A stretch of 64,000 nt of DNA, from NCBI RefSeq assembly GCF_900107485.1, contig NZ_FNQE01000001.1:62001-126000 (forward strand). The letters are read 5' to 3'. Source of the DNA: Proteiniborus ethanoligenes. Lineage in GTDB: Bacteria; Bacillota; Clostridia; Tissierellales; Proteiniboraceae. Numbering within the stretch: the first letter of the stretch is position 1; the number at the start of each line of letters is the position of its first letter. A program made the translations under genes and the position numbers. Below, piece by piece: positions 45,634 through 59,542 of this stretch. The notes beneath the pieces were generated by a model that saw only the letters and a program-made list of their open reading frames with translations, did not search any database and had not been told where the DNA came from.

Positions 45634-45665
45634 TAAAGCTACTGTTAATTCAGTAGCTTTTTTTA
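45634..45665 (+). terminator. Terminator of the isc operon
   Basis: AAAGCTACTG and CAGTAGCTTT with a 6-base loop, followed by a run of T. Confidence 0.9.
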
Positions 45666-45907
45666 TGACCTAACCCGATTTCCTGAATGCTTTTATCAGG
45701 AAATCGATGGTAGGTCAAACGCAATGAGAACCAAATTTGCACGACCGAAGGGAGTGAACAAATTTGTATTTCGAAACTGCGGGAAATGACCTAACCCGAT
45801 TTCCTGAATGCTTTTATCAGGAAATCGATGGTAGGTCAAACGCAATGAGAACCAAATTTATGTGAGAGACAGCAAGTAAATAAATTTGTGTAGCGAGACT
45901 ATGGGAA
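45666..45907. repeat. Tandem direct repeat, two 121-bp units with paired hairpins
   Basis: Unit 1 is at 45666-45786 and unit 2 at 45787-45907. The first 73 bases are identical. They fold as an outer TGACCTA/TAGGTCA stem around CGATTTCCTGA/TCAGGAAATCG. The remaining 48 bases differ at many positions, but both can form a second stem: CAAATTTG/CAAATTTG in unit 1 and CAAATTTAT/ATAAATTTG in unit 2. Pairing is retained through matched changes. There is no open frame of note. This intergenic stretch lies between iscU and a PRC-barrel gene. It could be a palindromic mobile repeat or a structured RNA. Confidence 0.85.
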
Positions 45908-59481: not shown

Positions 59482-59515
59482 TAATACGTGGAGATTTTAC
59501 CCACGTATTATTTAT
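59482..59515 (+). terminator. Hairpin between mltG and the methyltransferase gene
   Basis: TAATACGTGG and CCACGTATTA with a loop of about 9 bases, then TTTATG. Either a leaky terminator or a processing stem. Confidence 0.55.
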
Positions 59516-59542
59516 GAGTTTTTATAGCAAGGAGAGAGTTCG

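Follow-up and report, generated by a model that had tools for sequence, protein, structure and literature searches.

The two head-to-tail 121-bp units between iscU and a PRC-barrel gene of Proteiniborus ethanoligenes are probably copies of a non-autonomous mobile element, about 121 bp long and without protein, that is recognised in folded single-stranded form and attached to a T-run. They occupy positions 45665-45907 of the window, i.e., the whole stretch of 64,000 nucleotides that was analysed. In the first-pass annotation, the pair was suggested to be under selection for structure and to be either a mobile palindromic repeat or a structured RNA. This reading is supported by massive covariation among the aligned units, in which the second stem is maintained, by many further copies in the home genome and its relatives, and by empty sites in sister genomes. 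The position of the element next to terminators was overlooked at that stage.

Small structured repeats are common in bacteria. To our knowledge, the mode of movement has not been established for many of them. The precise T-run target, clean empty sites, polar truncation and very strong covariation of the present family make its mechanism testable.

The two units and their fold

Both units lie on the + strand behind the intrinsic terminator of iscU (45635-45664, + strand), the insertion target, whose 10-pair stem ends at 45660 and is followed by a T-run ending at 45664. Unit 1, consisting of a leading A and 121 bases (45665-45786), scores 131 bits against the family model and contains hairpin A at 45666-45717 and hairpin B at 45721-45780. 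Unit 2 (45787-45907) scores 117 bits, with an identical hairpin A at 45787-45838 and a hairpin B of another apical subtype at 45842-45902. The first 73 bases are indeed the same in both units, as had been claimed (45666-45738 and 45787-45859; 74 of 74 with the preceding A). On the + strand, both units fold far better than shuffled sequences (z of -6.5 and -3.8). No ORF is found in the 121-bp unit, and the element is without coding capacity. As for promoters on the + strand, none was found in or before the unit except one inside iscU, which is fewer than in shuffled sequences.

The second stem had been described as carrying a compensatory change. The pairs in question exist: unit 2 has A45860-T45881 in the place of G45739-C45759 of unit 1, and its second stem is longer by one pair, T45861-A45880. 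Nevertheless, the difference is a swap between two apical subfamilies of hairpin B and not one compensatory point change. Unit 1 has the apex CACGACC-GAA-GGGAGTG, and the other subfamily reads GTGAG..-GNNA-..GAGC; they occur at about 20:48 among 68 units.

Hairpin A is 52 nt long; its outer stem (TGACCTA/TAGGTCA) is conserved, and the inner one varies freely yet in step, e.g., TTTCCTGA/TCAGGAAA, TTTTCCGA/TCGGAAAA and GTTTCGG/CCGAAAG. Hairpin B is laid out as CGCA..GAGCACCAAATTT[apex]AAATTTGTGTTGCGAG..TGCG and holds tandem G.A/A.G pairs at two places. The lower of these is replaced by Watson-Crick pairs in a few copies (CAAGCA/TGCTTG, CTCTT/AAGAG, GGGCT/AGCCC), which supports the helix of hairpin B.

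Covariation strongly supports this fold. Across the 68 units of the genus, from which the covariance model was built, 96.4% of cells pair and double changes occur at 16 of the 34 pairs; 131 double-changed cells were counted versus 37 in shuffles, and pairing falls to 22-39% when the partner is slid. Double changes reach 38 of 40 pairs among 96 matches from other genomes, a cross-genus set whose alignment was fitted to the covariance model, which favours the model, and whose copies are not independent. In that set, 94.8% of pairs are kept (78% in shuffles, 28-38% when slid), and the double-changed cells number 546 versus 155 in shuffles. Several pairs show all four Watson-Crick types, and four types at one position point to repeated changes despite the model-fitted alignment and the non-independent copies. 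Since G.T mispairs exceed A.C mispairs (71:27 and 76:45), the + strand, which is the sense strand of the upstream gene, appears to be the one that folds, be it as RNA or as single-stranded DNA.

Two kinds of optional modules add hairpins to the unit. One lies inside hairpin B (AACCCTGTTGTAGG...GTCCGTTAGGACC), and the other turns hairpin A into a multibranch structure. Moreover, the nested pattern ATGCCC-TTTATGACC...CTGCG-AACCCC was seen at L170, L180 (from Tissierellia MAGs) and L209, where one unit appears to be inserted inside the outer stem of another.

Insertion behind terminators

Of 83 arrays whose 5' end is intact, 56 start behind a hairpin followed by a T-run under strict criteria; at random positions of the same loci, the share is 1.9% for TTA and 7.5% for TTTTA. 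By a second measure, a hairpin is present at 60 of 82 starts versus 12-15% in the controls. The bases preceding the unit are T (99%), T (98%) and A (99%). Among the other starts, several come after tRNA genes (L043, L044, L087 and L091; in other genomes L141, L159, L174 and L313), and some adjoin rRNA genes. Part of the terminator bias could come from selection against insertions at other places. The orientation of the copies relative to replication was examined for signs of single-stranded DNA. In one sister genome (G001), 37 of the 40 copies are co-oriented with replication, which is uninformative because it is about what the genes lead one to expect (about 86%).

Comparison of the home genome with sister genomes, from species about 75-85% identical, suggests that the element moves. 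In G002 the same iscU terminator is present but the site behind it is empty (CAGTAGTTTTTTTTATAATC), and in G001 that site holds a decayed copy. Further empty sites with both flanks aligned were found in sister genomes for L054, L057 and L066. For L102, occupied in G002, the empty counterpart is the window itself at 59514-59520. Of the empty sites and target-site duplications considered in the first-pass annotation, the former are thus present, and no duplication is evident at the empty sites compared between sister genomes. The empty site has CTTTTT|G at L057 and L066, against CTTTTT|ATGA.. in the occupied one, so the leading A probably belongs to the element.

The junction on the terminator side is exact, whereas the distal side is ragged. 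Many arrays are tandem. About one third of the arrays end, away from the terminator, in a unit truncated at varied positions, a few of these ends being cut by contig ends. Hairpin A is more alike within arrays than between sites (0.89 versus 0.78), whereas hairpin B is not (0.77 versus 0.76), the within-array comparison comprising ten pairs only. In the window and at L032, L048 and L051, a near-identical hairpin A is combined with different hairpins B. Gene conversion or re-copying by way of hairpin A would account for this pattern, in keeping with the earlier suggestion of gene conversion or re-insertion.

Candidate mechanisms and related repeats

In the favoured reading of a mobile folded strand, an integrating enzyme acting in trans would take that strand, either single-stranded DNA or RNA, as its substrate. 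The putative enzyme would join it to a 3' end in the T-run; tandem copies would arise where copying continues into the next unit, and 3'-truncated ones where it breaks off early. Because insertion behind a terminator would be almost neutral, copies would persist, and they would decay once in place. A mobilising enzyme was not found: the home genome has no Y1 transposase gene, and the repeat is associated with the genes of neither Y1 nor group II reverse transcriptase (RT). Nor does IS200 or the group IIC intron, the two known systems of the genus with the same target, track the repeat. The single-stranded-DNA route is slightly favoured over the retro route. The likelihoods attached below to a Y1 enzyme, to a retroelement and to movement by no dedicated enzyme all presuppose a mobile folded strand.

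Tentatively, the element can be seen as a miniature of the IS200/IS605 or REP type, a candidate of some weight though short of even chances, in which hairpins A and B would be the left-end and right-end hairpins and a Y1 (HuH) transposase would move single-stranded DNA. All three IS200 copies in G001 (L211, L213 and L215) lie directly after terminator T-runs, in the same polarity as the repeat. An exact junction on the left, two hairpins on one strand and the lack of any evident target duplication fit Y1 chemistry, and RAYT-like genes are present in G001 and G002. The home genome, however, has 28 matches to the repeat and no Y1 gene at E 0.001; across 199 genomes, Y1 and the repeat are not associated (p=0.35), and within the genus no element lies within about 1.5 kb of any Y1 gene. 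The unit carries no transposase, its ends are unlike those of the IS200 of G001, and ragged right ends are not expected for movement of this type. A Y1 transposase (IS200 or RAYT) as obligate partner was rejected as a general rule on account of the home genome and the lack of association. REP and BIME sequences, which occur with RAYT transposases, are likewise intergenic palindromic repeats (PMC3733652). REPs measure 20-40 bp and bear a GTAG or CGTC tag at one end; the present unit has 121 bp and two hairpins, with GTAG found only inside a stem. No RAYT gene adjoins a copy of the repeat, the home genome having no Y1 and none standing beside the copies in G001 and G002.

Rather unlikely is a retroelement resembling a bacterial SINE, whose RNA would be copied at the T-run by a group IIC-type or another RT. 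Bacterial-C (group IIC) introns share the target of the repeat, as they insert immediately behind intrinsic terminators (PMC8919778). The home genome contains three introns of group IIC-like type (L116, L119 and L121), identical to one another and each with a 471-aa RT; the only readable upstream flank among them is AGTTTTTCTTA. Polar truncation and tandem arrays also resemble primed copying with early stops. Against this, related RTs show no association with the repeat in the 199 genomes (p=0.25), and 18 of 34 high-copy genomes are without one; a group II RT as obligate partner was rejected for the lack of association. Copying primed from the T-run would need an antisense template, whereas the fold is carried by the sense strand. 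Furthermore, group IIC introns are ribozymes of about 2 kb that encode an RT, whereas the unit has neither a catalytic domain (no domain V and no intron 5' end) nor a protein, and no Rfam intron matches it. As an observation apart, a degenerate copy of the repeat lies directly downstream of one of the three introns.

A more elaborate version, in which a borrowed or other enzyme reverse-transcribes a protein-free small structured RNA into terminator T-runs and the modular domains of this RNA (the apical G.A hairpins and the two inserted modules) are exchanged between copies, is unlikely. We know of no retroposon class of this kind described in bacteria.

Movement without a dedicated enzyme seems quite unlikely. 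A replication fork or repair end stalled at the terminator hairpin would switch templates through the shared T-run to another copy and return after one or more units. The T-run as the sole invariant target feature, the ragged distal ends, the tandem arrays and the missing target duplication would be accommodated, and none of the gene families tested co-occurs with the repeat; neither the strict conservation of the fold nor the unit's invariable first base would be accounted for. A non-selfish role, in which a structured RNA or DNA would benefit the host by acting in cis behind genes (e.g., in termination, at mRNA 3' ends or on local supercoiling), is improbable: the strong structure conservation and the position behind terminators suit it, but occupancy at the same gene differs between sister species, copies decay, copy number varies widely between genomes, the element lies past the terminator and would be mostly untranscribed from the upstream gene, and no promoter was found in or before the unit on the + strand, apart from the one inside iscU.

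Among described repeats, the bcr1-bcr18 repeats of the Bacillus cereus group come close. These are structured, mobile-looking chromosomal repeats of 100-400 bp with dozens of copies, reported as confined to that group, with no mobilising enzyme established and a TTTAT motif tied to mobility (PMC6542083). The likeness in size class, structure, mobile look and copy number is one of description. Most 5' junctions of the present repeat contain TTTAT, with TTA plus the T of TGACC at nearly all of them, and its 3' ends vary. Terminator targeting, present here, is not mentioned for bcr in the passages drawn on (PMC6542083). The BOX elements of Streptococcus pneumoniae are modular interspersed repeats too, with optional internal hairpin modules and tandem copies (PMC3049150). 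They follow the order boxA-boxB(n)-boxC, whereas the present family consists of whole two-hairpin units behind terminator T-runs, and the likeness is in modular design only. A classical MITE was rejected, as the ends are not inverted repeats and no duplication is evident at the empty sites. The repeat is regarded as an undescribed small structured non-autonomous interspersed repeat, distinct by its terminator target and its modular tandem-G.A fold and set apart from bcr and BOX by description. Since terminators are the common target of a group IIC intron, IS200 and the repeat within one genus, they may be a shared safe harbour for unrelated mobile DNA.

Size and spread of the family

In the three genomes of the genus, an iterated profile search of the fetched loci counted about 137 units, distributed over about 92 places. 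By matches, the home genome has 28 and the two others 58 and 42. The copies of the home genome were gathered by search, and their number is a lower bound because several of its contigs (C19, C43, C48, C56 and others) end inside a unit. The family thus breaks draft assemblies, and it could also inflate counts of candidate structured RNAs.

Within the order, the covariance model matched 93 of 199 genomes, Tissierella and Sedimentibacter among them, and copy numbers differ widely; elsewhere matches are rare. Only 7 of 391 genomes drawn from the class matched at E 1e-6, just one of them outside the order, in a scan with stricter threshold and filters than that of the order. A scan of named genomes for the exact pattern gave 67 stretches, mostly in Tissierella, Sedimentibacter and other Tissierellia, as well as in Gallicola, Tepidimicrobium, Alkaliphilus, [Clostridium] ultunense, Emergencia and Gallibacter. 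Some of these have no model match and may be due to chance. The Tissierella pigra locus L186 shares its match with genome G061 (equal score, coordinates shifted by a round number), which suggests that the order is the one to which Tissierella belongs. No Rfam 15 family lies above the gathering threshold at the element, no match was found in plasmid, phage and viral collections, and no description of the repeat family was found in the open-access literature searched.

One lineage of copies sits within prophage-like genes. In two genera, a copy is located near the start of a phage tail-like gene (L314:1439-1653 in G091 and L315:1452-1666 in G083), and the two loci are 97% identical over 3.1 kb. 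About 48 bp including the gene start occur on both sides of the element with 83% identity, which leaves a full-length gene downstream of it. In [Clostridium] ultunense (L174), several units stand just after tRNA or rRNA 3' ends in a long rRNA/tRNA cluster, inside what should be a transcribed operon.
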